From: Bacteroidales bacterium
GTDB taxonomy: Bacteria; Bacteroidota; Bacteroidia; Bacteroidales; JAIOZK01
NCBI GenBank assembly: GCA_021740625.1
Contig: JAIOZK010000016.1
Coordinates: 1 to 64,000, forward strand
DNA: 64,000 bases
Reading direction: 5' to 3'
Shown here piece by piece: positions 47,036 to 62,169 of this stretch. Under the pieces are notes generated by a model that saw only the letters and a program-made list of their open reading frames with translations, did no database searches and was not told the DNA's origin. Position numbers and translations under genes: made by a program. Position 1 is the first letter of the stretch. The number at the start of each line of letters is the position of its first letter.

Positions 47036-47737
47036 ATGAACCGTATTAAAGTCTTAAACATTGAGTTTGAAAACGACATTTTTGCCTATGAACTGCCTGC
47101 ATTCAGAGGAGCAATCGCTGAATCTGCGGGTAAGGATCATGTGTTATTTCACAATCATCAAAACAACAAATATTTATATCAATATCCATTAATACAATAT
47201 AAGCGCATTGGTAAAAAGCCGGCAATAATTTGCATTGAAGATGGTATTGATGAGATACATCATTTTTTTAGCAACAAACAAGAAGGACTGATTCTGGGAG
47301 AACGACACTATGAATTAAAAATCGCAAAATTGCATATGAACCAGTTTGTTATGCAGGTTTGGGATAAGAGTTTTCATTATAACTTATGGAATTGGCTTGC
47401 ATTAAACCAGAAAAACTATTCAGAGTATAAAAACATTGAGTCTGAATTTGGAAAAATAGAATTTCTGGAAAAGATCTTAACCGGAAACATTTTATCCTTT
47501 GCCAAAGGCATTGGCTGGCAACTGGATAAAGAACTGAAAGTACGTATTAAAGAGATAAAACAAAAAAAAATCATAACTGTTAAAAACACAAAAAGGGAAG
47601 CATTATCGCTGGTCTTTACAAGCAATGCATTTTTACCCAACTATATTGGTCTGGGCAAAAATGCGAGCTTGGGATTTGGGATGGTAAAAGAAATAACCTA
47701 TGGAAAAAAATCAAATCATGGAGAACGACAATTATAA
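47036..47737 (+). CDS. cas6: CRISPR repeat-processing endoribonuclease Cas6
   Basis: This 233-residue protein of tandem ferredoxin-like RAMP type ends with the glycine-rich loop GLGKNASLGFGMVKEI (residues ~205-220), a hallmark of Cas6. Cas6 cuts the precursor crRNA within each repeat, leaving an 8-nt 5' handle. Candidate catalytic histidines lie in KDHVLFHNHQNNK, but which is used cannot be told. It is the first gene of the locus, and its 3' end overlaps the cas10 start by 20 bp, implying translational coupling. Confidence 0.88.
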   Translation: MNRIKVLNIEFENDIFAYELPAFRGAIAESAGKDHVLFHNHQNNKYLYQYPLIQYKRIGKKPAIICIEDGIDEIHHFFSNKQEGLILGERHYELKIAKLHMNQFVMQVWDKSFHYNLWNWLALNQKNYSEYKNIESEFGKIEFLEKILTGNILSFAKGIGWQLDKELKVRIKEIKQKKIITVKNTKREALSLVFTSNAFLPNYIGLGKNASLGFGMVKEITYGKKSNHGERQL

Positions 47738-50318
47738 AACCAACAGGCAAAAAATATACCTTGCAGCTTTGTTACATGATATTGGGAAGTTTTATCAACG
47801 TGCTGATGATAAAAATGCAAAAGAATCAAAGTTGCTTTCTGAGCAAACCAAAAAACTTGAGTCTATATATTGCCCCAAAAACAAAGGTTATTATTCACAT
47901 AAACATGTATTGTGGACAGCACAGTTTTTTGAGGATTTTGAAAAGCAATTCCGCGCCTTAACCAATAATGATGATAAAGAAACTTCTGTTTTTAAACTTG
48001 CCACATCACATCACAATCCCGATGAAAACGCTTTACCTGAACTAATCATTCAACGTGCGGATTGGTATTCATCGGGAGTAGACAGAAGCTCCGATGAGTA
48101 TAGCATCCAGGACGGCCTTAAAGAAAATGACCGCGAAGCTTTCAAGAAAAAAAGACTGTTGTCGGTTTTTGAAGGTTTGGCAAACAACAAACAGGATTTT
48201 GAATATGCACTGCCTGTTGAGGCACTCAGCTTGAAAACAGATTTTTTTCCAAAAAGAATTAATGAATTTACTTCGGTTCCCGATTATAAAAGCCTATGGG
48301 AAAGATTTATTAAAGATTTCAAAATCATCCAGACTGTTAACTACAGAGTCTTTGCTGAAACCACTCTAAACCTGCTTAAGAAATATACCGTTAACATTCC
48401 GAGCAGTACAATGCACCTGCCGGATGTTTCACTTTATGATCATTTAAAAACATCAGCCGGTTTTGCAGTCTGTCTGCTGGATTACCTTGAACAAGAGGAT
48501 GTGCAGAATAAAAGTCTGGCAGGTATAAAAAATAAAAATCCTTTTATACTGATCGGCGGAGACTTATCCGGGATTCAGGACTTTATCTATGATGTGATCT
48601 CGAAAAACGCTGCAAAAAATCTAAAGGGCAGGTCTTTTTATATTCAACTCTTAACTGAAAGCATTACTCATAAAATCCTTCATGAACTAAAACTCTTTAA
48701 AGCAAATCTGATATATGATGCGGGAGGTAATTTCTATATTCTCGCCCCTAATACTGAGGAGGTGAAAACAAAGCTTTCCTCGCTTAAAGAAGATTTTATA
48801 AATATGATTTTTAATGCTCATGGCAGTTCAATCTATCTGGCCATCGACCACATAGCTTTTGGGGAGCAGGAAATTCTAAAGGGGGGTGTAGCAACTGTAT
48901 GGGAGAAACTTCAGTACAAGCTTGATATTTCAAAGAACCAAAAGTATAAGTCAAAGATTGCCGATGATTTCAATTCTTTCTTCTCACCTGCTGAAATTGG
49001 CGGAAAGCAAATCCGGGACGTAATAACGGGCGAAGAAATTTCAGATAGTGAAATTCAGGAAAATGAAGTCAAATATCTGGACACTGATAATAAAGACCCT
49101 ATAAAGCTTGCAACTTTCAAACAAATAGAATTAGGCAAGCAACTACGGCAATCAGACTTCAGGGTGAAATCCAATGAACCACTCAATTACTGGAGCGGAG
49201 AGCACGAACACAACCCTGCCGGACTTGGCGTTTATTATTATTTTCTTTCAAAGAGTGGGCTTGAGAAGTATGCATCTGAACTAAAATCTTCGGCTGACAA
49301 TGTCGAGCTCATTTCGATCAATGATTCTCTTTCAGAAACAGAGGGCGAGATCGAATTCATCCATAGCCTAAAAGGCCTGAACAATATTTACAGCTTTGAT
49401 TTTTATGGTGGCAACAAATTTCCGTCATATGAAGAAACTGAAGTGGATGAGGATGGAGTTGAACACCTGACCGGTGAGCCTAAAACCTTTGATAAACTAT
49501 GTGGAAATGAAGGATTCAGAAGACTGGGTGTTCTCAGAATGGATGTTGATAACCTGGGAGACCTCTTTGCAAAAGGCTTCAAAAACAGGCATAGAACCTT
49601 TTCCCGTTTGTTGGCACTCAGCCGTAACCTGGATTACTTTTTTAAAGGTTACCTGAATACAATATGGAAACAGGAAAAGTATAAAAATGAAAGCATTATC
49701 CTGTATTCCGGTGGCGACGATTTGTTTATTGTCGGAAGATGGAACAAACTAATTGATATGGCTAAGGAAATCAAGCAGAATTTTGCTGCATTTACTTGCC
49801 ATAACAGCAAGCTGAGCATTTCAGGAGGGATGGCAATTGTTGGCCCCAAATATCCAATCTTAAAAGGAGCTGATCAGGCAGCAGAAGCTGAACACCAGGC
49901 GAAACAATATGAAAATAATGATGCAAATAAAAATGCATTTTACTTTTTCAACAATGCCTTCAACTGGGAAATCGAATATCATGCGCTGGAAGAGCTGAAA
50001 AATCTAATTGTAAAATACACCAATGAAGAAACCGGTCTGCCGGGCGCTTTCATTGGAAACGTTCAAAAGTTTGCAGCGAACCGTCAGTTGCAAATCAATA
50101 AGCAAAGAAATGAAAGCTGGCAATGGCAAATGGCATATTCACTTTCGAGAATGGCTAAAAGGATAAAGAGTGACGAGATTAAGCAATTTGTAAACCGTAT
50201 TAAAAATGATGTGTTCGCCAACTACTGGGAAGGGAAATCGCATCATTTTAAATATGAAACAATTGAAATATTGAATGTGGCTGCAAGATGGGCTGAATTT
50301 GAAATTCGAACTAAATGA
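47718..50318 (+). CDS. cas10: Type III-A effector subunit Cas10/Csm1 with HD nuclease and GGDD cyclase
   Basis: This 866-residue large subunit starts from the second ATG, which places the HD motif (LLHDIGKFYQRAD, His20-Asp21) near the N-terminus as usual; ATG 47700 is an alternative. More metal-ligand-like residues follow in ATSHHNPDENALPELIIQRA. A first Palm domain lacks the motif. A zinc-ribbon region is not obvious. The second Palm carries GGDD at 665-668 (ILYSGGDDLFIVG). On target-RNA binding, the HD domain cuts ssDNA and the GGDD domain makes cyclic oligoadenylates. Both sites look intact. Confidence 0.95.
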   Translation: MENDNYKTNRQKIYLAALLHDIGKFYQRADDKNAKESKLLSEQTKKLESIYCPKNKGYYSHKHVLWTAQFFEDFEKQFRALTNNDDKETSVFKLATSHHNPDENALPELIIQRADWYSSGVDRSSDEYSIQDGLKENDREAFKKKRLLSVFEGLANNKQDFEYALPVEALSLKTDFFPKRINEFTSVPDYKSLWERFIKDFKIIQTVNYRVFAETTLNLLKKYTVNIPSSTMHLPDVSLYDHLKTSAGFAVCLLDYLEQEDVQNKSLAGIKNKNPFILIGGDLSGIQDFIYDVISKNAAKNLKGRSFYIQLLTESITHKILHELKLFKANLIYDAGGNFYILAPNTEEVKTKLSSLKEDFINMIFNAHGSSIYLAIDHIAFGEQEILKGGVATVWEKLQYKLDISKNQKYKSKIADDFNSFFSPAEIGGKQIRDVITGEEISDSEIQENEVKYLDTDNKDPIKLATFKQIELGKQLRQSDFRVKSNEPLNYWSGEHEHNPAGLGVYYYFLSKSGLEKYASELKSSADNVELISINDSLSETEGEIEFIHSLKGLNNIYSFDFYGGNKFPSYEETEVDEDGVEHLTGEPKTFDKLCGNEGFRRLGVLRMDVDNLGDLFAKGFKNRHRTFSRLLALSRNLDYFFKGYLNTIWKQEKYKNESIILYSGGDDLFIVGRWNKLIDMAKEIKQNFAAFTCHNSKLSISGGMAIVGPKYPILKGADQAAEAEHQAKQYENNDANKNAFYFFNNAFNWEIEYHALEELKNLIVKYTNEETGLPGAFIGNVQKFAANRQLQINKQRNESWQWQMAYSLSRMAKRIKSDEIKQFVNRIKNDVFANYWEGKSHHFKYETIEILNVAARWAEFEIRTK

Positions 50319-50348: not shown

Positions 50349-50762
50349 ATGACAAACGGAAACATAAAATTTCAGAAAGGTAGAAAACACGGCCCTCCTG
50401 AAAACTGGGCGGCAAAGTTTGATACCAGTTGGATCACCGACAAAATCACAAAAGACACAGTTAAATTTTGTGATGAGTTTGGTGGACACCTTAAGCGACA
50501 ATACTTAACTACATCTCAGATCAGAAATGTATATGGAGAACTTAAGCGCATACAAATGAGAGGCTTTGAAAATGAAAAAACATCTTTTATCCTTTTGAAA
50601 CCTAAAATGGCATATTCAGTAGCCAGGGACAGGAAACTTGAAGACCTGAAAAGGGTTTTCGACAAAGCATATGATTCAGTTGAAAAGGCTGAGCATTTCG
50701 AAAATTTAATGGACTTTATGGAAGCATTATTGGCTTTTCATAAATCACATGGTGGTAAATAA
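50349..50762 (+). CDS. csm2: Type III-A small subunit Csm2
   Basis: A 137-residue, helix-rich, basic protein has LTTSQIRNVYGELKRIQMRG and SFILLKPKMAYSVARD, both characteristic of Csm2. Csm2 forms the inner filament of the Csm complex along the crRNA-target duplex. Its identity separates this locus (III-A) from III-B. It lies 30 bp after cas10 and 17 bp before csm3. Confidence 0.92.
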   Translation: MTNGNIKFQKGRKHGPPENWAAKFDTSWITDKITKDTVKFCDEFGGHLKRQYLTTSQIRNVYGELKRIQMRGFENEKTSFILLKPKMAYSVARDRKLEDLKRVFDKAYDSVEKAEHFENLMDFMEALLAFHKSHGGK

Positions 50763-50779
50763 TACAAAAACGATATATC

Positions 50780-51490
50780 ATGGAACAGTTAGTAAAAAAG
50801 ATATTCATAGAAGGAGAAATAAAACTTCTTACCGGTACTCATATCGGAGGAACCAATTCAGCAATGGGAATTGGAGGGCCCGATTCTACTGTAGTTAGAA
50901 ATCCCATTGATAACAAACCTTATATACCCGGAAGCTCCCTCAAAGGAAAAATGCGCGCTCTTATTGAAATATCGGACGGAACCATTGGGAGCTCAGGTAT
51001 GAAAGATATTAAAAATGTAGCTTCGGATGATCCCGATTCCAATTCGGGAAAATTGTTTGGCACTGCTACCAATGATTTGAAACAGCGTCCTTCAAAACTG
51101 ATCGTGCGGGATGCAGAAATACTTTCTGACGATAAGGATTTTGTAAATACTGATCTTCCTTATACCGAAAGCAAAACCGAGGTTGTTATCGATCGTATCA
51201 CTGCCAAAGCAAATCCCAGACAAATTGAGCGTGTTCCGGCCGGTGCCAGGTTTAAGCTGAATATGGTACTGAATGTGTTTAATTCCGATCAAAAAGAAGA
51301 ACAGCTTAATACTCTTTTCAGAGGTTTTAAACTGCTGGAGAACGATTATCTGGGAGGTAACGGCTCCAGGGGCTACGGACAGGTTAAGTTTCAGATAGAC
51401 AAGGTTACCGAAAAGGAAATAAGCAAACTTATTGATAAAGATGATCAGGGTTTAGACCTGACCGATGAATGGAAATCCAAGCTTGATTGA
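50780..51490 (+). CDS. csm3: Type III-A backbone RAMP and target-RNA nuclease Csm3
   Basis: This 236-residue Cas7-family RAMP has LLTGTHIGGTNSAMGIGGPD with the conserved catalytic Asp35. The glycine-rich IPGSSLKGKMRALIE follows, then a C-terminal NDYLGGNGSRGYGQVKF. Csm3 repeats along the crRNA and cuts target RNA every 6 nt, shutting off cOA signalling. The Asp is present, so slicing should work. The stop codon is 2 bp before the csm4 ATG. Confidence 0.93.
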   Translation: MEQLVKKIFIEGEIKLLTGTHIGGTNSAMGIGGPDSTVVRNPIDNKPYIPGSSLKGKMRALIEISDGTIGSSGMKDIKNVASDDPDSNSGKLFGTATNDLKQRPSKLIVRDAEILSDDKDFVNTDLPYTESKTEVVIDRITAKANPRQIERVPAGARFKLNMVLNVFNSDQKEEQLNTLFRGFKLLENDYLGGNGSRGYGQVKFQIDKVTEKEISKLIDKDDQGLDLTDEWKSKLD

Positions 51491-51492
51491 TT

Positions 51493-52500
51493 ATGGCTGC
51501 AAAAAGTTTTGATATAGTAAAGCTGTCCTTTACATCTCCTTTACATTTGAGTCGGGGCAAAACAGATTATTACGACCGATCGGAAACTGTTTTGCATTCC
51601 GATACCATCAAATCTGTGATATTTATTGGTGCAAAGCAGTTGTATAGAGAAATAATCAACAGGGATTTTCTGGAGTCTTTTCTCATAAGTTCGGCTTATT
51701 TTTTTAACAGAGATGAATATTTTTTACCAAAACCATTGGTAAATTTCAATATTAATATCCAGAATATAGAAGAGGGACCGGCTAAATATAAAAGGATTAA
51801 AAGATTGAAATATCTGAGCAAGGCCTATTTTGAAAAAGTTATGAATGATGTTGATATTGGAATTGAAAATGACCAGTTTTCTTCCAATGGAAGTTTGTTA
51901 AGCATACATAGAAATCCTGAAACGTTTTACAGCTCTGTTTTACAACAAAGAGTCGCAAAGCCTTCGGGTGAAGGCGAACAACCCCGTCCCTATTATGTGG
52001 ATCGTTTGTTTTTCAAGAAGGATGCAGGCATGTACTTTCTGGTGGAGACGGAAAATAACGACACAAAGCAGATGATTAAAAATGGACTTAAGCTAATGGA
52101 AAGCGAAGGTTTGGGGACTGATCGAAATGTCGGAAACGGTCAATTCCAGATGGAATATATCGATAAGGGATTTGAAGTTGAGCTTCCTGAAAAAGCTGAT
52201 GCTTCAACCCTATTGTCACTTTATCTTCCAAAACAGGAAGAGATCAAAGAAAGTACACTCAACAAAAGCAGCTATCAATTGCTTAAAAGGGGTGGATATA
52301 TCAGTAACGCGGAAGACTTACAGTTTGTGACTTTCAGGAAAAAGTCAATCTACATGTTTGCCGAGGGTTCTGTTATTGGAACAAAAAACATAAAAGGCAA
52401 TATTGCGGATCTTAAGCCTGAAACAGTCCAGGGTTTAAACCACCCGGTTTATCGCGACGGACAGGCGTTGGCCATCCCGATAAGGTTACCCGGTGCATAA
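51493..52500 (+). CDS. csm4: Type III-A Cas5-like subunit Csm4
   Basis: A 335-residue RAMP starts at the ATG at 51493 (a TTG 6 bp earlier overlaps the csm3 stop). It opens KSFDIVKLSFTSPLHLSRGK, typical of Csm4. A central ESEGLGTDRNVGNGQFQMEY is the glycine-rich loop that caps the crRNA 5' handle and contacts Cas10. It ends HPVYRDGQALAIPIRLPGA. The family usually has about 300 residues, so length is normal. Confidence 0.9.
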   Translation: MAAKSFDIVKLSFTSPLHLSRGKTDYYDRSETVLHSDTIKSVIFIGAKQLYREIINRDFLESFLISSAYFFNRDEYFLPKPLVNFNINIQNIEEGPAKYKRIKRLKYLSKAYFEKVMNDVDIGIENDQFSSNGSLLSIHRNPETFYSSVLQQRVAKPSGEGEQPRPYYVDRLFFKKDAGMYFLVETENNDTKQMIKNGLKLMESEGLGTDRNVGNGQFQMEYIDKGFEVELPEKADASTLLSLYLPKQEEIKESTLNKSSYQLLKRGGYISNAEDLQFVTFRKKSIYMFAEGSVIGTKNIKGNIADLKPETVQGLNHPVYRDGQALAIPIRLPGA

Positions 52501-52538: not shown

Positions 52539-53684
52539 ATGGCGAATGTTAAAGCATTATTATTGTCACCTGTTCATATCGGAAGTGGAATTGAGCTGCA
52601 ACAGAATATAGAGTTTCTTATCCACGATCAACGGCTGGCGGTGGTTGATGATAAAAAAGTCCTTGAGGTCATTGGTGAAGATAACATCAGTCAGTGGATA
52701 AGCTATATCAACAAGCGCGAAAACCTGATGGAGTTGTTAAAGCAGAGAAAGCCTGATGTCACAATTTCAGATGTGGCAGACAGAGAAATGGATGTATACG
52801 GAACCAGGCTGATGAACAAAAAAACTTTAAAGGAACAATTGCATAATGGACAGGGATTTCCAATGATACCAGGTTCCTCGATTAAGGGCGCCATCAGGAC
52901 TGCCATAATTACACACCTGGTAAATAAGCATACAAAAACTGTTAAAAACATCATCTCAGAATACAAAAACCTCAATGCTTCAAAAAACCCTGGTTGGAGA
53001 TGGCAATTGAGAGACTTTCAAAAAGTTGAGGAAAGAATCCTTAATATGCTTTTGAGCGGTTCGAACCGCACAGACCCCAATAGAAACGCAATGCGTTTCC
53101 TGCAAGTGACCGATGCCAGCTTTAATTTTAACACCATTGCCAGCAATGTATTATTACTCAATCTTACATGGCGGGGATGGGACTTTAAAGGTGGTTCGGA
53201 TCAACTGGTAGAATTCATTGGGCAAGACAGCGAAAGCAGATTCAGGATTTCAATCAACCATGATCTGCTTGGAAAAAACCATTTGAAAACAGATACTGCT
53301 TTCCTCGAATCCCTGGAAAAGTTGTTTGAGATTATAAACGAACACAATAAAATGTTAATCAATGAGGAAATTAACATGTGGAAAGATGAGGCGGGCTTTC
53401 CCGGGCAGCTTGAAATTTACCTGGATATCCTTAATGAAATAAAACAAACTGCTTTATCTCTTAATAAGAATGAAGCCATATTAAGGCTAGGGGGACATAC
53501 CGGCTGGAATAGTATAAGCGGTGCTTGGGCAAAAAATAACAAAGAATTGTTCGATGATTATGAATGGGAAATTTTGAAAAAATCTCTTAATAAAGGAAGA
53601 AATGTGGATTATTTTCCAAAAACAAGAAAAATTGAAGAAGAAGGCGATGTTTTTGGTTACATCAAACTCAGTTTAGAAAATTGA
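52539..53684 (+). CDS. csm5: Type III-A RAMP subunit Csm5
   Basis: This 381-residue protein starts ANVKALLLSPVHIGSGIELQ. It contains FPMIPGSSIKGAIRTAIITH, the RAMP glycine-rich loop, and a later RLGGHTGWNSISGAW. Csm5 caps the 3' end of the Csm filament and is needed for crRNA 3' maturation. It is the last of the interference genes; the next gene (53809) follows a 124-bp gap with its own operator-like sequence. Confidence 0.9.
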   Translation: MANVKALLLSPVHIGSGIELQQNIEFLIHDQRLAVVDDKKVLEVIGEDNISQWISYINKRENLMELLKQRKPDVTISDVADREMDVYGTRLMNKKTLKEQLHNGQGFPMIPGSSIKGAIRTAIITHLVNKHTKTVKNIISEYKNLNASKNPGWRWQLRDFQKVEERILNMLLSGSNRTDPNRNAMRFLQVTDASFNFNTIASNVLLLNLTWRGWDFKGGSDQLVEFIGQDSESRFRISINHDLLGKNHLKTDTAFLESLEKLFEIINEHNKMLINEEINMWKDEAGFPGQLEIYLDILNEIKQTALSLNKNEAILRLGGHTGWNSISGAWAKNNKELFDDYEWEILKKSLNKGRNVDYFPKTRKIEEEGDVFGYIKLSLEN

Positions 53685-53808: not shown

Positions 53809-55002
53809 ATGCAAAGATTATTTGAATTATCAAAAGAACGTCTGAAGAGCACTCCCATGCAGTTTTTTCGCTATCTCATGAGCGAAATTCATTGGGAGGA
53901 TCGTCTCATCGGAATATCAGGCGCAAGGGGATGTGGCAAAACAACATTAATGTTGCAGCACCTAAAGAAAAATATCAAAAACACTGAAAATGCTCTTTAT
54001 GTCAGTCTCGACGATATTTACTTTGCAGAAAACCATTTGGTATACTTTGCAGAAGACTTTGTAAAAAACGGTGGAAAATTCCTCTATTTGGATGAAGTTC
54101 ACAAATATCCCAATTGGAGCCGTGAACTGAAAAACATCTACGACAACCTGCCGGAACTGAAGGTGGTTTTCACCAGCTCCTCGGCTCTTGATATTTACAA
54201 AGGGGAATATGACCTCAGCCGACGGGCACTGGTGTATGAAATGCCCGGACTTTCCTTTAGGGAGTTTATCAACCTGAAATACAAAAAAGAACTTCTCACA
54301 CTAACACTCAACGAAATTTTACAAAACAAACATCAAAAAATCAAGGACGGACTTGGCACCCTTAAACCTCTCGCCCTTTTCAAAGAATATTTGAAGTATG
54401 GCTATTACCCCTTTTTCATCGAATCACAAAAAAATTACTATGTGCGTCTTCATTCAACCATCAACCTGGTTGCGGAAACCGACTTGCCTTCCATTTTTCA
54501 TTTCGACTATCACTCGGTACAAAAAATTAAAAAATTGCTGGCTGTTATTGCCCGGGTTGCTCCCTATAAACCAAACATACAAAAACTTGCTCAGCAAATA
54601 GGTTCCACTCGCGATACCCTGCTTAAATTCCTGTTTTATCTCGAAAAAGCCAGAATTGTAAAATGGCTTGGGAAAGACACTTTTGGGATCAATTATCTGA
54701 ATAAACCTGAAAAGCTGTTTCTCGATAATACCAACCTCATGTATGCCTTAAGTGACGGAAACCCGAATATTGGCAGTATCAGGGAAGTATTCTTTATAAA
54801 CCAACTTGCGGTAAAACATTCAGTTAACTATCCAAGCAAAGCTGACTTTCTGATTGATAAAAAATACCTTTTTGAGGTTGGGGGAAAAAACAAAACCAGC
54901 AAACAAATTGCCGGTCTTGAAAATGCATACATTGCAGCAGATGAAATTGAACACACATTTAAAAATATCATCCCTTTGTGGATGTTTGGGTTTTTGTATT
55001 AA
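53809..55002 (+). CDS. AAA_14/DUF4143-type ATPase inserted in the CRISPR locus
   Basis: This 397-residue protein has Walker A GARGCGKTTLM (Lys44), Walker B KFLYLDEVHKYPNW (Asp95, Glu96) and sensor-like VVFTSSSALDIYKGEYDLSR. An Arg-finger-like SRRALVYEMPGLSFREF follows, typical of AAA_14 ATPases. Its C-terminal half (~300-397) matches the DUF4143 region, including FEVGGKNKTSKQIAGLEN, which often looks like a nuclease-fold remnant. It is common in Bacteroidota as a free-standing gene. Here its own dyad operators suggest an autonomous cargo gene rather than a core Csm component. A link to CRISPR function is possible but unproven. Confidence 0.8.
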   Translation: MQRLFELSKERLKSTPMQFFRYLMSEIHWEDRLIGISGARGCGKTTLMLQHLKKNIKNTENALYVSLDDIYFAENHLVYFAEDFVKNGGKFLYLDEVHKYPNWSRELKNIYDNLPELKVVFTSSSALDIYKGEYDLSRRALVYEMPGLSFREFINLKYKKELLTLTLNEILQNKHQKIKDGLGTLKPLALFKEYLKYGYYPFFIESQKNYYVRLHSTINLVAETDLPSIFHFDYHSVQKIKKLLAVIARVAPYKPNIQKLAQQIGSTRDTLLKFLFYLEKARIVKWLGKDTFGINYLNKPEKLFLDNTNLMYALSDGNPNIGSIREVFFINQLAVKHSVNYPSKADFLIDKKYLFEVGGKNKTSKQIAGLENAYIAADEIEHTFKNIIPLWMFGFLY

Positions 55003-55013
55003 AACATTAAAAC

Positions 55014-56306
55014 ATGAGCAGAAAAGTATTCATTTCAATTTTAGGAACAAGCTATTATGAAGAGACCTGCTATTTCCATCAAAATGAAGAACCAGATGGA
55101 AATAAGGTAAGATATGTGCAGGAAGCAAGTATTCAAAAACTTTGCGTTGACTGGAAAGAAACCGATTGTATTTATATATTTCTTACAGAAAAAGCTCGGG
55201 AAACAAATTGGAAACATCCGGCACAAAAAAATGCCGCCAACGATAAACAAGCATATGATGGCCTGGAAAAAAGGCTGGCTTTGCTTAATCTCGAATGTGT
55301 GATAAAGGATGTTGACATTTTGGATGGAAACACCGAACAGGAAATCTGGGAGATATTTCGAAGTATATATGATGTGCTGGAAGAGGAAGATGAAGTGTAT
55401 TTCGACATCACGCATGCATACCGATATTTGCCTATGCTGCTGATGGTACTAATCAATTATTCTAAGTTTTTAAAAAATATAGAAGTAAAGCAAATAACAT
55501 ACGGCAATTATGAAGCCAGGACAAACAATTATTCACCCATTATCGAATTGTCATCATTTTCTCAACTACAGGATTGGACAAGCGCAGTTCATGAATACAC
55601 ATACTCAGGTGCTAGCGAAAGTCTGATAAAAATTATTAAAACGAATGCAAAAAAATTAAAAGGCAAACAAAAACAACCTCTTGAAAAATTTGCAAATTCA
55701 TTGGGAGATTTTAACAACTCAATCCTAACATTAAGGGGTAATGAGATTTACAAAGGAAATAATGCGAAAAAACTTAGAGAGAATTTAAGTATAGTTAAAG
55801 AAAAAACCGAGATCGCCGCTCTTGATCCTGTATTGAATAAAATTGATGAAAAGATACAGAGGTTTAACAAAACTGATGAATTGGAAAATGGCGAGAAAGC
55901 AGTTGAATGGTGCATTGAGCATAATTTATGGCAACAAGCACTCACCTTAGGCCAGGAGCATATTATAAGTATGCTTTGCTCAATTTATAGGAAAGATTAT
56001 AAGGTTAAGAAAAACCGGGAATTTATTAGTAAATCATTAGGTGTATTGAATATTGAACAAAAAAACAAAAAGGAAAAAAATAAAAAAGAACTTGATTACG
56101 TGCTTAGAGAAAACTATGAAGAATTCTTAAAATTAAAATCCGATAAAATCTTCAACAAAATCAAAAATGATTTTGCTAATTTATCTGGTTATCGGAATAC
56201 ATATAATCATGCTGGTATTATAGGCAACATTAAATCAGGAGAAATAATCAAAAACTTCAAATCATATTATTACAACATCATTGAAATTCTACGGACATGC
56301 TCCTAA
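55014..56306 (+). CDS. csx1: CARF-HEPN ancillary ribonuclease of Csx1/TM1812 type
   Basis: This 430-residue protein starts KVFISILGTSYYEETCYFH. It has IFLTEKARETNWKHPAQKN and then VYFDITHAYRYLPMLLMVL, the pattern of the TM1812/Csx1 CARF domain that binds cyclic oligoadenylate. The C-terminal HEPN domain has the catalytic R-x4-H in GYRNTYNHAGI (Arg394, His399). It would act as a cOA-activated RNase alongside Cas10. No csm6 is present, so it fills that role. The next gene starts inside its stop region, a 10-bp overlap. Confidence 0.88.
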   Translation: MSRKVFISILGTSYYEETCYFHQNEEPDGNKVRYVQEASIQKLCVDWKETDCIYIFLTEKARETNWKHPAQKNAANDKQAYDGLEKRLALLNLECVIKDVDILDGNTEQEIWEIFRSIYDVLEEEDEVYFDITHAYRYLPMLLMVLINYSKFLKNIEVKQITYGNYEARTNNYSPIIELSSFSQLQDWTSAVHEYTYSGASESLIKIIKTNAKKLKGKQKQPLEKFANSLGDFNNSILTLRGNEIYKGNNAKKLRENLSIVKEKTEIAALDPVLNKIDEKIQRFNKTDELENGEKAVEWCIEHNLWQQALTLGQEHIISMLCSIYRKDYKVKKNREFISKSLGVLNIEQKNKKEKNKKELDYVLRENYEEFLKLKSDKIFNKIKNDFANLSGYRNTYNHAGIIGNIKSGEIIKNFKSYYYNIIEILRTCS

Positions 56307-56668
56307 ACCTCTCCAATCACCCCTATCAATACTGGCCCGAAATTCAGCTACAAGCTGCAAAATTAGCTTACGGGAAAATTGTTGATATGAATTTCCCTCC
56401 CATCAACCCCCATGCAGACAAAAACGAGATAAGCTTGCTGGCGGAGCAATATGCAAAAAAATGCTTGGCTCTCTTGAAAGATGAAAAAATAAAAGCCGTC
56501 CACATCATGGGCGAAATGACCTTTTGTTTTAAAGTGGTAAGCCTGCTGCAACAGCAAAACATCACTTGCCTTGCCTCAACAAGCAACAGAAGTGCGACCT
56601 TTATTACTAACAACGAAAAACACGCAAAATTTGATTTTGTGCGTTTTAGGGAATACCCCCGATTGTAA
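56297..56668 (+). CDS. Small CARF-like protein, candidate cyclic-oligoadenylate ring nuclease (Csx20-like)
   Basis: This 123-residue protein starts MLLNLSNHPYQYWPEIQLQA. It has VHIMGEMTFCFKVVSLLQQQ and ends KFDFVRFREYPRL, with alternating strands and helices typical of a single Rossmann-like CARF-type domain. The ATG lies inside the csx1 stop region, so translation is coupled and stoichiometry with the cOA-activated RNase seems likely. From memory, small stand-alone proteins with an N-terminal LLNLSNHP and C-terminal FVRFREY recur in type III loci and were proposed to cleave cOA. That naming is unverified here. Confidence 0.6.
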   Translation: MLLNLSNHPYQYWPEIQLQAAKLAYGKIVDMNFPPINPHADKNEISLLAEQYAKKCLALLKDEKIKAVHIMGEMTFCFKVVSLLQQQNITCLASTSNRSATFITNNEKHAKFDFVRFREYPRL

Positions 56669-56678
56669 AGCGATTGTT

Positions 56679-58085
56679 ATGAACAGCTCAAAATACTTCG
56701 ATATATCATTGAACGATGAACAGCAACAAGCTTTTGAAAAAATAAAACGGTTTTTTCAGAATAACGATCAGCGGGTATTTATTTTAAAAGGACATGCCGG
56801 CACCGGCAAAACCACCCTGGTTAAAGGTCTTATCAAATACCTGAAAGATCAGGAAATAAAAAGTGTATTGCTGGCATCAACCGGAAGGGCTGCCAAAATA
56901 CTGAGAGAAAAAGCTTCGGTTCCTGCCAGTACGGTGCATAAACACATTTACGATTTTGAGAACGACGAGCTGGATGACAAAATAAAAATACGCAAACTTA
57001 GCTTCCGCCTGATAAAAAACCTGGATAAAGATAATGCCGTTTATTTTGTAGATGAAAGCTCAATTATCTCCAACCAGAAAGTAAAAGCAACTTTCCTGAA
57101 TTTCGGCACGGGCATGTTGCTAACGGATCTACTTTATTTTTGCGGCAAGCGCAAGATCGTTTTCGTGGGCGATCCGGCCCAGCTTCCGCCTGTTAATTGT
57201 AAGTTTTCTGCAGCGCTCAATGAGGTATATTTCAACAAAAAGTTCAACATCCGGCCGCAAAGTACAAATCTTACGCAAATCGTACGCTTTAGCCAAAATT
57301 CAGGCATATACCATAATACCAACCATTTCAGAAATTCCATTCAAAGCTCCACTTTTCCAATGCTTTCGGTTAAGGCAAGCAATTTTGGTGATATACAGGT
57401 ACATCATAATCTGCAGGAAATGGTAAGGCATTACGTTGAACGCATCCGGGCCACAGGCGTTGAAAACTGCATTTTCATCAACCTCTCCAACAAGGAAAAC
57501 ACGTACGTAAACAATCTTACCCGAAGCTATTTATACTCCAAAAGAAAAGCAATGCAGTTTAACAAAAACGAATCACTGATGGTGGTACGAAACAATTATC
57601 TGCACGACTTGCTAAATGGCGACCAGGTGTTGGTAAGAAGTGTGTCTCCGAAAACTGAATACAGGGCAGGATTACGATTCCGTGAGGCCGAACTCATGCA
57701 TGTTAGCGAAAGTGGCGGTAATGTGATCAATGCTAAGATCATTGAAAACCTGCTGGGCATGAATACGTCCGACCTGGACCAGGAGCAGGAATACAAATTA
57801 TTTTTAGATTTTGTGATAAGAATGCGCAAAATTGGCCTTAGATCAAAGGACCAGAAATTCAAGGAAATGATGATGGAAGATCCCTATTTAAATGCCCTAA
57901 GGGTAAAATACGGATATGCCATCACCTGCCACAAAGCACAAGGCGGCGAATGGCAGGAGGTGTTCATTCAGTTTGAAAGAAGCATGTTCTTTTTTCCCAA
58001 AGAAAACATTTACCGCTGGGCTTACACGGCCATCAGCCGGAGTACAGAAAAACTGCATTTGCTGGATAATCGTTGCATTTATTAA
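56679..58085 (+). CDS. SF1B helicase (RecD/Pif1-like) within the adaptation module
   Basis: A 468-residue protein, from the ATG at 56679, 10 bp after the preceding stop. Walker A is GHAGTGKTTLVKGL (Lys44) and Walker B NAVYFVDESSIIS. Motif III is FVGDPAQLPPVNC, and LTQIVRFSQNSG corresponds to motif IV. Motifs V-VI are GYAITCHKAQGGEWQEV and YRWAYTAISRSTEKLH. This is an SF1B, 5'-3' type DNA helicase of the RecD2/Dda/Pif1 group, without accessory N-terminal domains. Its placement directly before cas1 (9 bp) suggests a role in generating or processing spacer precursors. Confidence 0.85.
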   Translation: MNSSKYFDISLNDEQQQAFEKIKRFFQNNDQRVFILKGHAGTGKTTLVKGLIKYLKDQEIKSVLLASTGRAAKILREKASVPASTVHKHIYDFENDELDDKIKIRKLSFRLIKNLDKDNAVYFVDESSIISNQKVKATFLNFGTGMLLTDLLYFCGKRKIVFVGDPAQLPPVNCKFSAALNEVYFNKKFNIRPQSTNLTQIVRFSQNSGIYHNTNHFRNSIQSSTFPMLSVKASNFGDIQVHHNLQEMVRHYVERIRATGVENCIFINLSNKENTYVNNLTRSYLYSKRKAMQFNKNESLMVVRNNYLHDLLNGDQVLVRSVSPKTEYRAGLRFREAELMHVSESGGNVINAKIIENLLGMNTSDLDQEQEYKLFLDFVIRMRKIGLRSKDQKFKEMMMEDPYLNALRVKYGYAITCHKAQGGEWQEVFIQFERSMFFFPKENIYRWAYTAISRSTEKLHLLDNRCIY

Positions 58086-58094
58086 TTTATTGTT

Positions 58095-59078
58095 ATGGAC
58101 ATTATTTTAAATACCTACGGCACATCCCTTCAAAAAGAAGGGGAAAATTTCCTTGTGATTCATAAGGATGGCAAACAAAAGATCCATCCAGAGAAAGTAA
58201 AAAGCATCAGTATTAGCAAAGGAGCAAAAATAAGCTCCGATGCTGCCCTGATGGCAATTGATAACGAAATCGACGTATTGTTTATCAACAAAACCGGCAA
58301 ACCGGCAGGCAGGCTGTGGAGTGTGAAATACGGCTCGGTTTCTACCATCAGAAGAAAACAGCTTGATTTTACCTTCTCCAAAGAGGCCATTGACTGGATC
58401 AAGCAAATCCTTGAGAAGAAAATTGACAACCAGGTGGCTTTGCTGCTAACCATTGCTTCCGATGAGGAGAGCGAAAATAAAAAGCTAGAACAGGCTATAA
58501 ACAAGCTCAACGATTATAAAACCAAGATTAGGAGTCTTAAAGGTGAAGTAATAAGCGATGTGGGGGCAAGCATCCGGGGATGGGAAGGCGCATCATCAAG
58601 AATTTATTTTGAAAGAATTTCAGCCATTTTACCCGATGAATATAAATTCCGGATTCGCAGCAAGCACCCGGCGCTGGATATTTTTAACTGCCTGCTAAAC
58701 TATGGTTATGGTGTTTTATACGGAAAAATCGAAGGGGCACTTATCAAAGCAGGAATTGATCCTTACGTGGGCGTTTTTCACCGCGACGATTACAACCGCC
58801 CCGTGCTGGTTTTTGATATTATTGAACTTTACAGGGTTTGGGTGGATTATGTGGTGATAAACCTTTGCACCCAAAAAGTGATTGATGAAGACTGCTACAG
58901 TGTTAAAGAAGATGATTCCTACTGGCTGGAGTCGATGGGGAAACGCATTTTGATTCAATCTCTGAACGATTACCTGGGTGAAATAGTTAACATCGGCGGA
59001 ACCGATCGAAGCCGGTCAGAGCATATCAACCTCAATGCACAAAAACTGGCAACAAAATTTACCAACTTCCCCTCTTAA
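58095..59078 (+). CDS. cas1: CRISPR integrase Cas1
   Basis: A 327-residue integrase has the active-site residues Glu164 (RGWEGASSRIYF), His229 (VGVFHRDDYNRPVLVF) and Asp241/Glu244 (FDIIELYRVW). The N-terminal beta domain begins MDIILNTYGTSLQKEGENFL. With Cas2 it inserts new spacers at the leader end of the array. It sits between the helicase and the PrimPol-like gene, with 9 and 11 bp gaps, so the four genes look co-translated. Confidence 0.96.
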   Translation: MDIILNTYGTSLQKEGENFLVIHKDGKQKIHPEKVKSISISKGAKISSDAALMAIDNEIDVLFINKTGKPAGRLWSVKYGSVSTIRRKQLDFTFSKEAIDWIKQILEKKIDNQVALLLTIASDEESENKKLEQAINKLNDYKTKIRSLKGEVISDVGASIRGWEGASSRIYFERISAILPDEYKFRIRSKHPALDIFNCLLNYGYGVLYGKIEGALIKAGIDPYVGVFHRDDYNRPVLVFDIIELYRVWVDYVVINLCTQKVIDEDCYSVKEDDSYWLESMGKRILIQSLNDYLGEIVNIGGTDRSRSEHINLNAQKLATKFTNFPS

Positions 59079-59089
59079 ATTTTTAAGCA

Positions 59090-60091
59090 ATGATCACTTT
59101 TGGCAGAAATATCACACAAAAAAACGACCCGCTGCAAAAAATTGAACCTGAACGCTTTTACCGGCTCCTGAAAAACCCTCCGGAAGGCTTGCGTTCGCAA
59201 ATAAAACAATTGCGCACGGTTTTGAGTCTTGACCAGGGAAAATACCGCACACTTAAAACAAAGCTGCCCTATGTTTGCTGCGGAATTTTTAACCCGCCTT
59301 ACCGGCTTACAGCAAACTTTGCTTCTGCCTCACATTTTATACTCGACATTGATCATCTGAAAGAAAAAGAACTGGAAGCTGATACACTCAAACAAAAACT
59401 TTCCGAAGATTCACGCGTCCATCTGATTTTTGTTTCACCCGGAAAAGATGGATTAAAAATATTATTCCGCATGGATCGAAAATGTTTTGATCATGCCAAA
59501 TACAGCATCTTCTACAAGGTTTTTGCCCATGCATTTTCAAAACAATATGAACTGCAGCAGGTAATTGACACGCGAACATCTGACGTAACAAGAGCATGTT
59601 TTGTAAGCTACGATCCGGATGCCATTTTCAACCCACTGGCCGACAAAGTCAATATGGAGGCTTTTGTTGACTTCAACAATGAAACCCAGGTAAAGGAAGC
59701 ACAAAATTTAATCAAAGAAGAGAATAAGGAGCAGCCAGGCACACCCGATAACAAACCTGAAATTTCGGGTGATATCTTGCAGGAGATCAAACAGAAGTTA
59801 AATCCAAACTTAAAAAAGAAAGCGGAAAAACAAATTTATGTCCCGGAAGAGTTGAATGCCATCATTGAAAAAGTAAGGCAAAAGCTTGGGGAATACCAAA
59901 TTGAAATCCTCGACATACAAAACATTCACTACGGGAAGAAATTCAAATGCAAACTGCAGGAACACCTGGCTGAGGTTAATGTGTTTTACGGCAGGAAAGG
60001 ATATTCGGTGGTCAAATCACCCAAAAGGGGAACAAATGCAGAATTAAACGATATTGTACACAAGCTGCTTTGTGAATTGTTTTTTAACTGA
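59090..60091 (+). CDS. Primase-polymerase-like protein (BT4734/VirE-N-type, AEP fold) in the adaptation module
   Basis: This 333-residue protein has the archaeo-eukaryotic primase pattern. Motif I is HFILDIDHL (Asp86, Asp88), motif II VSPGKDGLKILFRM (Ser116-Lys123) and motif III VIDTRTSDVTRACFVSYDPD (Asp160/Asp165, Arg168). The N-terminal domain matches BT4734-like/VirE-N proteins of Bacteroidota. A C-terminal ~110-residue domain (IHYGKKFKCKLQEHLAEVNV) is unrecognised. AEP enzymes make primers or fill DNA gaps. Between cas1 and cas2 the likely role is synthesis or completion of spacer DNA; this is inference. The stop overlaps the cas2 start region. Confidence 0.75.
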   Translation: MITFGRNITQKNDPLQKIEPERFYRLLKNPPEGLRSQIKQLRTVLSLDQGKYRTLKTKLPYVCCGIFNPPYRLTANFASASHFILDIDHLKEKELEADTLKQKLSEDSRVHLIFVSPGKDGLKILFRMDRKCFDHAKYSIFYKVFAHAFSKQYELQQVIDTRTSDVTRACFVSYDPDAIFNPLADKVNMEAFVDFNNETQVKEAQNLIKEENKEQPGTPDNKPEISGDILQEIKQKLNPNLKKKAEKQIYVPEELNAIIEKVRQKLGEYQIEILDIQNIHYGKKFKCKLQEHLAEVNVFYGRKGYSVVKSPKRGTNAELNDIVHKLLCELFFN

Positions 60092-60092
60092 T

Positions 60093-60581
60093 ATGACGAA
60101 AAAGAAGAAAAAGGAATTAAGCTTTGTTGAAAAAATGCGTTTGCTGAAAAGAGCAGGTATGGAAAATGCAAAGCAAATAGAAAGCGAAGAAACTACTGCT
60201 AAAGAAAGCAAGATGCTTCCGCTGGAAGAACGCCTGCAGGAAGTACTCGGAATCTATAACAATCAAAAAAAACATCCCAACCGTATGCTGTACTTTATCA
60301 TGTATGATATAGAAAACGACAAGATCAGGACCCGCATATCAAAGTACCTGGAAGACAAAGGTTGCGTGCGTGTACAGAAATCAATTTTCTTTGCACAAAC
60401 CGAAAGGTCACTTTTTAACGAAATCCATGAAACCCTGCGCGAAATACAGGACATGTATCAAAACGATGATAGTTTGTTTTTTGTGCCGGTAAGCACCGAT
60501 CAGATGCGAAGCATGAAAATCGTAGGCCGGAGCGTGGATTTCGACCTGATCATGGACAACAAAAACACCCTGTTCTTTTAA
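60093..60581 (+). CDS. cas2: Cas2 with a charged N-terminal extension
   Basis: A 162-residue protein; its Cas2 fold occupies ~65-162. It begins NRMLYFIMYDIENDKIRTRI (Asp72), continues SKYLEDKGCVRVQKSIFFAQ, and ends SVDFDLIMDNKNTLFF. The first ~64 residues are a Lys/Glu-rich helical extension (MTKKKKKELSFVEKMRLLKR) absent from typical 90-100-residue Cas2. Cas2 dimerises to bridge Cas1 in the integrase. ATG 60093 is used because it directly follows the preceding stop (TGATATG). The extension could recruit the helicase or PrimPol. Confidence 0.9.
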   Translation: MTKKKKKELSFVEKMRLLKRAGMENAKQIESEETTAKESKMLPLEERLQEVLGIYNNQKKHPNRMLYFIMYDIENDKIRTRISKYLEDKGCVRVQKSIFFAQTERSLFNEIHETLREIQDMYQNDDSLFFVPVSTDQMRSMKIVGRSVDFDLIMDNKNTLFF

Positions 60582-60967
60582 TCCCATAGACAACAATAGT
60601 TAGTAAAGGACATTAGACCACAAATGACAAATGACAAATGACAAATGACCAATGACAAATGACAAATTGTCAATTACCAATATCCAACGCTCAATATCCA
60701 ATATCCAACATGTGTCCCATCTAATGGATATTGATTATTGGGTGTTGATTATTGGATATTTAAAAAATCAAAAATAACCAATAACCACCTTGCATGCATC
60801 AATTTATTTTGTTAAGTTTGACAAGTAAAATGCCCTGCGATGTATATGAAAAACTATTTATACCTTTGCACCTTTCAAAAAAAGACCTTTTTATCAAGGC
60901 GAAAACCCCAGGGGAAACAATTAAGAATATTTAACTACCTATCTCATAGAATTTTATAAAAAGAACT
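60582..60967 (+). promoter_or_regulatory. CRISPR leader region
   Basis: This AT-rich, non-coding stretch runs between cas2 and the first repeat. It holds a direct-repeat tract of 'acaaatg' (60620-60668) and a 10-bp inverted pair AATATCCAAT (60693-60702) and ATTGGATATT (60751-60760) that could fold or bend the leader. TACCTTTG (60861-60868) is a -7-type sequence about 100 bp before the first repeat, in the + direction. No -33 TTG sits at the usual spacing, so the exact promoter is uncertain. Confidence 0.6.
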
Positions 60968-61978
60968 ATCAGAGACTAACTTTCCAGTAAAACAAGGATT
61001 AAGACGTTTGTTTTGCTCGAAAGAACGAGCACAGTTTGCCGTCAATCAGAGACTAACTTTCCAGTAAAACAAGGATTAAGACTGTTGCAGTCAACAATGT
61101 CAAATGCATCGTCGATTATCAGAGACTAACTTTCCAGTAAAACAAGGATTAAGACCTGTTTGTGGCCTGTTTAATAGCTCGTTAACTATGTATCAGAGAC
61201 TAACTTTCCAGTAAAACAAGGATTAAGACATTGTTCCGTTTTCGACGACATCTTGCAGTTGATAGGCTATCAGAGACTAACTTTCCAGTAAAACAAGGAT
61301 TAAGACTCCTGTTTTTAATTTGTTTCTGTTTATTGCTTTGTTTATCAGAGACTAACTTTCCAGTAAAACAAGGATTAAGACTATCATAAGAAGTTCCGCC
61401 ATCTTCATTAACTTCTACTATCAGAGACTAACTTTCCAGTAAAACAAGGATTAAGACGATCTGTCCACCACTGACCATTTGCCTGCGACTTGCATCAGAG
61501 ACTAACTTTCCAGTAAAACAAGGATTAAGACAAATACTGGGCTGGTACGTCTGCCATTGGAGTATCTCTATCAGAGACTAACTTTCCAGTAAAACAAGGA
61601 TTAAGACAGTCCATGATCTGTCCACCACTGACCATTTGCCTGCGATCAGAGACTAACTTTCCAGTAAAACAAGGATTAAGACAAAGACTACAGGAAGCTT
61701 TTGTCACATGAACGAAAGTATCAGAGACTAACTTTCCAGTAAAACAAGGATTAAGACCATTCTTAGCTGCTCTGTATAATTCAGCAGCTTTAGTATCAGA
61801 GACTAACTTTCCAGTAAAACAAGGATTAAGACTTTCATAAGTTCTAACAACCTGACCATTTTCGTCAAATCAGAGACTAACTTTCCAGTAAAACAAGGAT
61901 TAAGACAGTTCGATTTCAGTTTTTCCAGCCTGTATTTTTTATCAGAGACTAACTTTCCAGTAAAACAAGGATCAAGAC
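60968..61978 (+). CRISPR. CRISPR array: 14 repeats of 38 nt, 13 spacers of 34-39 nt
   Basis: The repeat begins ATCAGAGACTAACTTTCC and continues AGTAAAACAAGGATTAAGAC. Repeats start at 60968, 61045, 61118, 61192, 61269, 61344, 61420, 61494, 61570, 61645, 61720, 61795, 61869 and 61941. Thirteen are identical; the last has ATCAAGAC in place of ATTAAGAC. A stem CTTTCC/GGA..AAG with a 2-nt bulge is possible. The 3' octamer ATTAAGAC resembles the type III 5' handle ATTGAAAC. This, the degenerate last repeat and the position after cas2 all place the leader on the left and transcription on the + strand. Spacers 7 and 9 share 30 nt. Confidence 0.98.
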
Positions 61979-62010
61979 TTTTAAATTCGTTTCCGGGAAC
62001 CTGCAACGTA

Positions 62011-62106
62011 GTGTTCTTTGTTTTGTGTTTTGTGTTTTCTGTTCTGTGTTTTGTGTTTTGTGTTTTGTGTTCTTTGTTTTGTGTTCTTTGTTTTGGGTTC
62101 TGTGTT
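62011..62106. repeat. Low-complexity GT-rich tract distal to the array
   Basis: About 95 bp of iterated 'tgttttgtgtt' variants lie between the last CRISPR repeat and the next gene. There is no coding potential. It may be a slippage-prone spacer. Confidence 0.7.
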
Positions 62107-62169
62107 GCCTTTTGGCTTCTCCCTTTTGCCTTTTCCTACTTAGAATAAATCCAAATAAAAAATTTTCCG

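Follow-up and report, generated by a model that had tools for sequence, protein, structure and literature searches.

The adaptation operon

The first 64,000 nucleotides of contig JAIOZK010000016.1 from a Bacteroidales bacterium (hereafter the window) contain, on the plus strand, a tight row of four genes followed by a CRISPR array. The row comprises a RecD/Pif1-like superfamily 1 (SF1) helicase of 468 amino acids (aa; 56679–58085; AAA_30 1.6e-23, UvrD_C_2 9.1e-13), a cas1 gene encoding 327 aa (58095–59078; Pfam Cas_Cas1 2.7e-67, 227.4 bits; TIGR00287 243.7 bits, cut-off 71.7), a CRISPR-associated primase-polymerase of class B (CAPP_B) of 333 aa (59090–60091; NF040562 2.7e-120; PADLOC PrimPol 6.4e-26) and an N-terminally extended cas2 encoding 162 aa (60093–60581; CRISPR_Cas2 3e-14, 53.4 bits, on the Cas2 body). 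A first-pass annotation, made from the sequence alone, had given this order with gaps of 9, 11 and 1 bp, and its gene calls, order and gaps are exact. The array (60968–61978, plus strand) has, as counted here, 14 repeats of 38 nt and 13 spacers of 34–39 nt. The window also holds cas10/csm1 together with csm2–csm5, the gene set of type III-A, and it is as good as certain that the operon is the CAPP_B adaptation module of a type III-A CRISPR system. We consider it probable (about 0.78) that in this module Cas1–Cas2, CAPP_B and the RecD-like helicase make double-stranded prespacers, finish integration, or do both.

Identity and fold of the primase-polymerase

The 333-aa protein matches NF040562, the NCBI equivalog model for CRISPR-associated primase-polymerase type B, over residues 2–330 with 401.6 bits (cut-off 200), and Pfam BT4734-like_N at 6.9e-21. 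Invariant motifs and the predicted structure place a catalytic domain of the archaeo-eukaryotic primase (AEP) superfamily at approximately residues 1–205 (59090–59704, plus strand). This VirE_N/BT4734-like domain has the DxD motif and the downstream aspartate of the class, and the gene stands with cas1 (gap 11 bp) and cas2 (gap 1 bp) in a type III locus. Residues D86, D88, S116, P117, D120-G-L-K123, D160, T163, D165, R168 and D175 are invariant in 18/18 aligned homologues. The first-pass annotation had singled out Asp86/Asp88 and Asp160/Asp165–Arg168, all of them invariant, along with a Ser-Pro-Gly-Lys block; of the latter S116 and P117 stand, but the four residues are not kept as a motif (position 118 can be G or S, and 119 varies), and the conserved block is S116-P117-x-x-D120-G121-L122-K123.

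An AlphaFold2 model built from the 18 aligned homologues (mean predicted local distance difference test score, pLDDT, 88.7; predicted TM-score 0.63) has an AEP-like domain at residues 1–204, for which the best VIA-align score is Z 9.8 to the cyanophage S-2L PrimPol (142 residues, root-mean-square deviation 3.7). The polymerase domain of LigD scores Z 7.1 and the Marinitoga CAPP (7p9j) Z 6.1, and values below 8, the Marinitoga match included, can reflect a mere common arrangement. Foldseek returned no match to the model at E ≤ 0.001 (best 2.6e-3, the LigD polymerase domain), and solved structures searched by sequence yielded none at E ≤ 0.1. The case for an AEP-like fold is made by structural alignment, motifs and family models in combination. 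The earlier description of the protein as an AEP/PrimPol enzyme is upheld by profile search (NF040562, BT4734-like_N), and a lack of the fold was not borne out.

CAPP_B relatives are encoded in 301 of 316 pattern stretches from viral contigs. The 80 that were kept match only in part, at 24–36% identity and none past CAPP_B residue 251, so that what the phage proteins share with CAPP_B is the catalytic domain. A second, weaker match to the CAPP_B model (55.4 bits) in the genome of the window itself (L002; G000:C12:34876-35349) lies in a 322-aa open reading frame with a further frame after it, and may be a mobile-element primase.

Relation to described CAPP systems

The CAPP_B class was defined as VirE_N-type AEP enzymes that lie for the most part in type III operons and are nearly confined to Bacteroidetes (Zabrady 2021, PMC8211822, here and below as given in its main text). 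The operon of DbCAPP, from a Dysgonamonadaceae bacterium, agrees with the window in each of these points: a VirE_N/BT4734-like AEP enzyme of ~335 aa lies between Cas1 and Cas2, a putative RecD-like helicase is ‘proximal’, and the operon is of type III and from Bacteroidetes. We see no difference of substance between the two, the window set being known from sequence alone. The suggestion in the first-pass annotation that this is not a standard arrangement therefore fails, since the class, its placement with cas1/cas2 and the nearby RecD-like helicase are all in that paper (PMC8211822) and an NCBI equivalog model exists; an arrangement new in itself was rejected because the CAPP_B set had been described in 2021. 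Two-hybrid contacts were reported between DbCas1 and DbCAPP, DbCas1 and DbRecD, and DbCAPP and DbCas2, the first of them confirmed by pull-down (PMC8211822). DbCAPP has DNA primase and polymerase activity and displaces strands during synthesis, and CAPPs displace strands in vitro on half-site and, for MpCAPP, on full post-synaptic substrates (PMC8211822).

The CAPP_A systems (Marinitoga TPR-AEP, RT-AEP and AEP-helicase fusions) likewise tie an AEP enzyme to cas1/cas2, but they differ from the window in AEP class, in their phyla and in their domain fusions, the TPR and helicase parts being fused rather than separate (PMC8211822). In the literature covered on CAPP, primase-polymerases or RecD-like helicases with CRISPR, which included PMC10415136, PMC12669027 and PMC5862659, only Zabrady 2021 was seen to pair a CAPP with a RecD-like helicase; the RecD-like helicase of PMC12669027 belongs to a type IV variant. 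Nothing was found in the literature searched that combines BT4734 with Cas1 and a helicase.

Conservation of the operon and of the Cas2 extension

Genome contigs of 84,980 species were scanned with an alignment of three CAPP_B proteins, which gave 50 pattern stretches and, from these, 18 confirmed loci (designated by L numbers). Directly downstream of CAPP_B lies cas2 in 18/18, and directly upstream lies cas1 in all 17 loci that reach that side (the contig of L038 begins at CAPP_B). Because the same neighbours recur in 18 loci found by the primase-polymerase sequence alone, the arrangement is beyond chance. The refuting case named in the first-pass annotation, this gene apart from cas1/cas2 in relatives, was not seen in any of the 18 loci surveyed. 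In Prevotella falsenii (L048, 9022–11016) both the cas1 frame and the CAPP_B frame are broken into two parts, by decay or sequencing error.

In 8/18 loci (L032, L033, L034, L040, L043, L046, L047, from Algoriphagus kandeliae, and L049), as in the window, the first match met upstream of cas1 is the helicase; it occurs elsewhere in the fetched DNA in 4/18 (L037, L042, L044, L045); in L037, L042 and L045 it stands apart from cas1-CAPP-cas2. Counting the 18 surveyed genomes and that of the window, a window-type helicase is present in 14/19, in full in 12 (579–698 bits, a gap to the paralogues described below that is partly by construction, as 10 of the 11 helicases behind the model come from these very genomes) and in part in two (233 bits at L046 and 91.5 bits in the genome of L042). 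In the genome of L039 it lies on a different contig.

Cas2 has ~64 additional N-terminal residues (60093–60284, plus strand). They can be aligned in 19/19 rows, the 5′ ends of several having been set by hand, with R47 invariant and G22 nearly so. A structure model of Cas2, with a mean pLDDT of 71.7 overall, predicts two helices in this stretch (11–20 and 44–60), where confidence is low to fair. Among 395 genomes of the phylum the CAPP_B model has some match in 46 and exceeds its cut-off in only 3, and the full long-Cas2 model, at E ≤ 1e-20, finds 3/395, the identical three; this second search scored at most nine first-look candidates per genome, so that misses are possible.

The helicase and its relatives

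For the gene at 56679–58085 the first-pass annotation had given a RecD/Pif1-like helicase of SF1 within the adaptation genes of a type III-A system, and this is right. Its best PADLOC models are those of PDC-M16A (441.5 bits), the helicase of PDC-M16, a candidate module of phage defence in PADLOC, in which it is paired with the TPR-S1/CSD protein PDC-M16B; we use ‘TOTE’ for related conflict modules, after the wording of the Pfam families. With RecD2 and with the RecD of RecBCD it shares the SF1B helicase core, but the model matches are weak: RecD2 gives 117.5 bits, short of a cut-off of 500, in a match that starts at RecD2 position 311 of 713.

One PDC-M16A model matched 231 of 296 genomes at E ≤ 0.001, many of them weakly, in a search that scored at most two candidates per genome and may have missed others. 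In the same class 46/70 genomes match at E < 1e-50, mostly via a stand-alone protein of ~475–510 aa (the common paralogue), and in most of the phylum's other families matches are weak or absent. The PDC-M16A models are matched by the common paralogue as well (386 bits), so that such a match alone does not decide membership in TOTE/PDC-M16. A 484-aa paralogue frame lies elsewhere in the genome of the window (G000:C1:274120-275460; 333.5 bits to the window-type helicase model), and a paralogue match of ~295–370 bits was found in 17/19 CAPP_B genomes, in one of them in two pieces. As to the other refuting case of the first-pass annotation, a helicase apart from cas1/cas2 in relatives, members of this family do occur away from these genes, within TOTE-like modules and as the common paralogue.

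A quick tree was made of 48 helicases. In it 12 from CAPP_B genomes and one other (L091) form one group, with a support of 99 by the approximate likelihood-ratio test (SH-aLRT), and 23 sampled paralogues form another (100). Both groups were retained in a second quick tree to which eight outgroup sequences had been added; both trees carry SH-aLRT supports and no bootstrap. In the outgroup tree the ‘TOTE’ helicases branch around both groups (supports 82–99), and two of them with no TBP match (L088, L089) join the paralogues. The forks that bear on the ancestral form of the helicase have supports of 82–91, and one outgroup branch is very long. The clade of the window helicase thus has 13 members, 12 from CAPP_B genomes and L091 from a genome (G112) with a Csm locus, in which csm and csx genes are present and a genome search gave no CAPP_B match; as 11 genomes of the clade were chosen through CAPP_B, its association with CAPP_B is weak evidence.

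Twenty helicase regions were fetched, consisting of the 12 top-scoring hits besides that of the window (L080–L091, 11 genomes) and eight others, and none of the 20 has a CAPP_B match. A cas or csx gene lies in the fetched DNA of 8/12 top hits (L082–L087, L090 and L091), which include two adjacent stretches of one contig (L090 and L091) and one region in which a Csx1-type protein is the only such evidence (L086). The other eight regions (the paralogue from the window's genome, three further paralogue copies and four distant forms) gave no match to the cas/csx proteins of the window. In L083 (1–8411) and L090 (6655–11143) there is a row of Cas4-like, cas1, cas2 and helicase genes, with the helicase ~200 bp after cas2; csx or csm genes are present in these loci, and Cas4 is matched only weakly (E 4e-5 and 7e-8). 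These rows are apparently an alternative use of the same helicase family. The CAPP_B loci gave no Cas4 matches, which is weak evidence because the search was made solely with divergent Cas4 proteins or domains, taken from L083, L090, L084 and L085.

Links to TOTE and PDC-M16 modules

Profile and structure matches point to a TBP-like (TBP-TOTE) domain at the C-terminus of CAPP_B (residues 254–333; 59849–60088, plus strand). Residues 253–332 are predicted to form helices, four strands and then a helix, and the domain aligns with the N-terminal domain of RnlA at Z 9.0 over 76 residues; its match to Pfam TBP-TOTE is weak (8.5e-4, below the family cut-off). When the CAPP_B C-termini were compared by hhalign with the C-termini of seven TOTE-type helicases, the result was E 1.1e-7 (probability 94), with E 2.9e-6 to 7.5e-5 for four smaller subsets, whereas nine controls gave E ≥ 0.19; six of these set CAPP_B C-termini against Cas2 and five slices of the helicase core, and three set the AEP domain against helicase C-termini. 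Since these profiles match and the controls do not, the domain that the helicase carries in TOTE-like modules is on the primase here. Among the 12 helicases labelled ‘TOTE’ (L080–L090 and L129; rarer and mostly longer forms), 9 have a C-terminal TBP-TOTE match at E ≤ 0.01, 8 of them above the family cut-off (L086 is below it), and no match was seen in L088, L089 and L090. The 468-aa window helicase, for its part, is an SF1 helicase of the PDC-M16A family but has no TBP-TOTE match.

The third component is a TPR protein, which belongs either to the PDC-M16B family (Pfam DUF7017, S1CSD-TOTE) or to the TPR-CSD family and stands beside the CAPP_B operon in 6/18 loci. Four matches are strong (L044 398, L049 349, L047 279 and L034 236 bits, the last on the other strand) and two are weaker (L033 119 and L038 71 bits, to TPR-CSD); in L047 and L049 the frame begins inside the final bases of cas2. 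The genome of the window gave no match at E ≤ 0.001 to PDLC04477 or PDLC01170, the models used for a TPR-S1/CSD partner. In L082 and L085 a helicase/PDC-M16B pair is the direct neighbour of a csm1-5 operon and runs on the strand opposite to it.

The CAPP_B operon thus resembles TOTE/PDC-M16 in three parts: the helicase and the TBP-like domain, which are homologous although the latter is on CAPP_B here, and a TPR protein near 6/18 loci. It differs in that the window helicase is without TBP domains, none of these TPR proteins was found in its genome, and cas1/cas2 are added. It is this three-way homology of C-terminal domain, helicase and TPR protein that is new, and it suggests that the parts of the module were captured together. 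We tentatively propose, at odds we put slightly short of even, that the operon is a captured TOTE/PDC-M16 module (helicase, TBP-like domain and sometimes TPR-S1/CSD protein) wired to Cas1–Cas2 via the new Cas2 extension, and that sister modules with helicases of the same family were separately wired to cas4-type cas1-cas2 operons of other type III systems. If so, spacer uptake would draw on an inherited machine for recognising and processing invading replication intermediates. The main text of PMC8211822 has no hits for TATA, TBP or ‘N-terminal extension’ and does not name a TBP-like C-terminus, and no mention of ‘TOTE conflict’ or PDC-M16 was found in the literature searched, from which subscription papers were mostly absent, so that this is no proof of novelty. 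The link leads to hypotheses on the ligand of the CAPP_B C-terminal domain, on the recurrent TPR protein nearby and on the Cas2 extension as a docking piece.

Function and alternative explanations

The source of double-stranded spacers in type III systems, and the enzymes that finish integration, are described as not settled (PMC8211822). In the adaptation module envisaged here, Cas1–Cas2 would capture and integrate spacers, with CAPP_B docked on Cas1 and probably also on the Cas2 extension. CAPP_B would start and extend DNA strands, converting single-stranded or ragged fragments to double-stranded prespacers, and/or would copy across the strands of a repeat that has just been integrated, so that integration is finished. 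The RecD-like helicase, held by Cas1, would expose single strands for this copying or open the integration product. The adaptation function is argued by analogy from the biochemistry of the homologue DbCAPP carried out by others (PMC8211822), and we infer the action of the helicase, the docking role of the Cas2 extension and the step that the module serves in cells. The model of the first-pass annotation, a helicase that exposes strands and an AEP enzyme that copies them, agrees with the published CAPP proposals in the main text of that paper. With compact, separate genes for helicase, CAPP, Cas1 and Cas2 beside an array, the operon is a convenient test set for such questions.

Some observations weigh against this model. 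No window-type helicase was found in 5/19 CAPP_B genomes (L035, L036, L038, L041 and L048, which are drafts or metagenome-assembled genomes), where only paralogues of 295–353 bits were seen, and the helicase is therefore not strictly required. Specific co-evolution of the two proteins was considered and dropped: the Mantel correlation is 0.73 (n 12), but on the same nine genomes it is 0.75 as against 0.70 with the unlinked paralogue, and because the unlinked signal is about as strong, the co-variation reflects shared inheritance rather than a specific partnership. Lastly, spacers 7 and 9 of the array (61458–61493 and 61608–61644) have 30 nt in common in the same orientation and are two captures of nearly the same spot; the two spacers are offset from each other by 6–7 nt at both ends, so that copying from one fixed priming site looks unlikely. 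The 30-nt core has no exact match in viral contigs and no copy at ≤3 mismatches in its own genome outside the array, and the array as a whole has only chance-level matches to phages (best E 0.3).

The closest competitor holds that helicase and CAPP act mainly after integration, opening and copying the duplicated repeat and so repairing the gaps left by Cas1–Cas2, instead of making prespacers. In other CRISPR systems such integration gaps are thought to be filled by host polymerases, and a dedicated primase activity would then seem superfluous; we regard this reading as somewhat unlikely, though it is the most serious of the three considered. It draws on the strand displacement by CAPPs in vitro on half-site and, for MpCAPP, full post-synaptic substrates, and a post-integration role was also proposed by the authors of that work (PMC8211822, main text). 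A further reading takes the helicase out of adaptation altogether, as an independent anti-invader component of TOTE/PDC-M16 type that merely shares the operon. Related helicases do lie beside TPR-S1/CSD proteins with no match to the cas proteins of the window in 20 kb (L080, L081), and the separation from cas1-CAPP-cas2 in three CAPP_B loci points the same way. The Cas1–RecD two-hybrid contact in the Db system (PMC8211822, main text), the place of the helicase next to cas1 in the window and eight surveyed loci, and the related helicases just behind cas2 in L083 and L090 all speak for a role in adaptation, and we think an independent component improbable.

The paralogue at 333.5 bits in the same genome, and its counterparts in 17/19 genomes, could also suggest that the helicase is a recent copy of this common RecD-like protein that landed beside cas1 by chance. 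This was rejected, and we give it next to no credence, because in both quick trees, made without bootstrap, the 23 paralogue copies and the CAPP_B-genome helicases with L091 form separate groups that run across genera.

The surrounding locus

All genes of the locus are on the plus strand. The effector genes lie upstream of the adaptation operon and begin with a Cas6b-like cas6 (47036–47737; Cas6b_C 1.2e-35) and a cas10/csm1 with an HD domain (47700–50318; TIGR02578 609.9 bits). These are followed by csm2 (50349–50762; TIGR01870 63.8 bits, cut-off 30.6), csm3 (50780–51490; PADLOC Csm3 225 bits), csm4 (51487–52500; PADLOC Csm4 146 bits) and csm5 (52539–53684; PADLOC Csm5 111 bits). An AAA_14/DUF4143-type ATPase (53809–55002; PADLOC PDC-S01 84 bits) separates csm5 from csx1, which encodes a CARF-HEPN protein (55014–56306; PADLOC CARF_HEPN_CSX20 347 bits), and csx20 (56297–56668; PADLOC Csx20 124 bits) precedes the helicase, cas1, CAPP_B, cas2 and the array. 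Short tandem repeats with a period of 7/14 nt, of the ACAAATG and GTGTTTT types, bracket the array on both sides, at 60620–60682 and 61997–62127.

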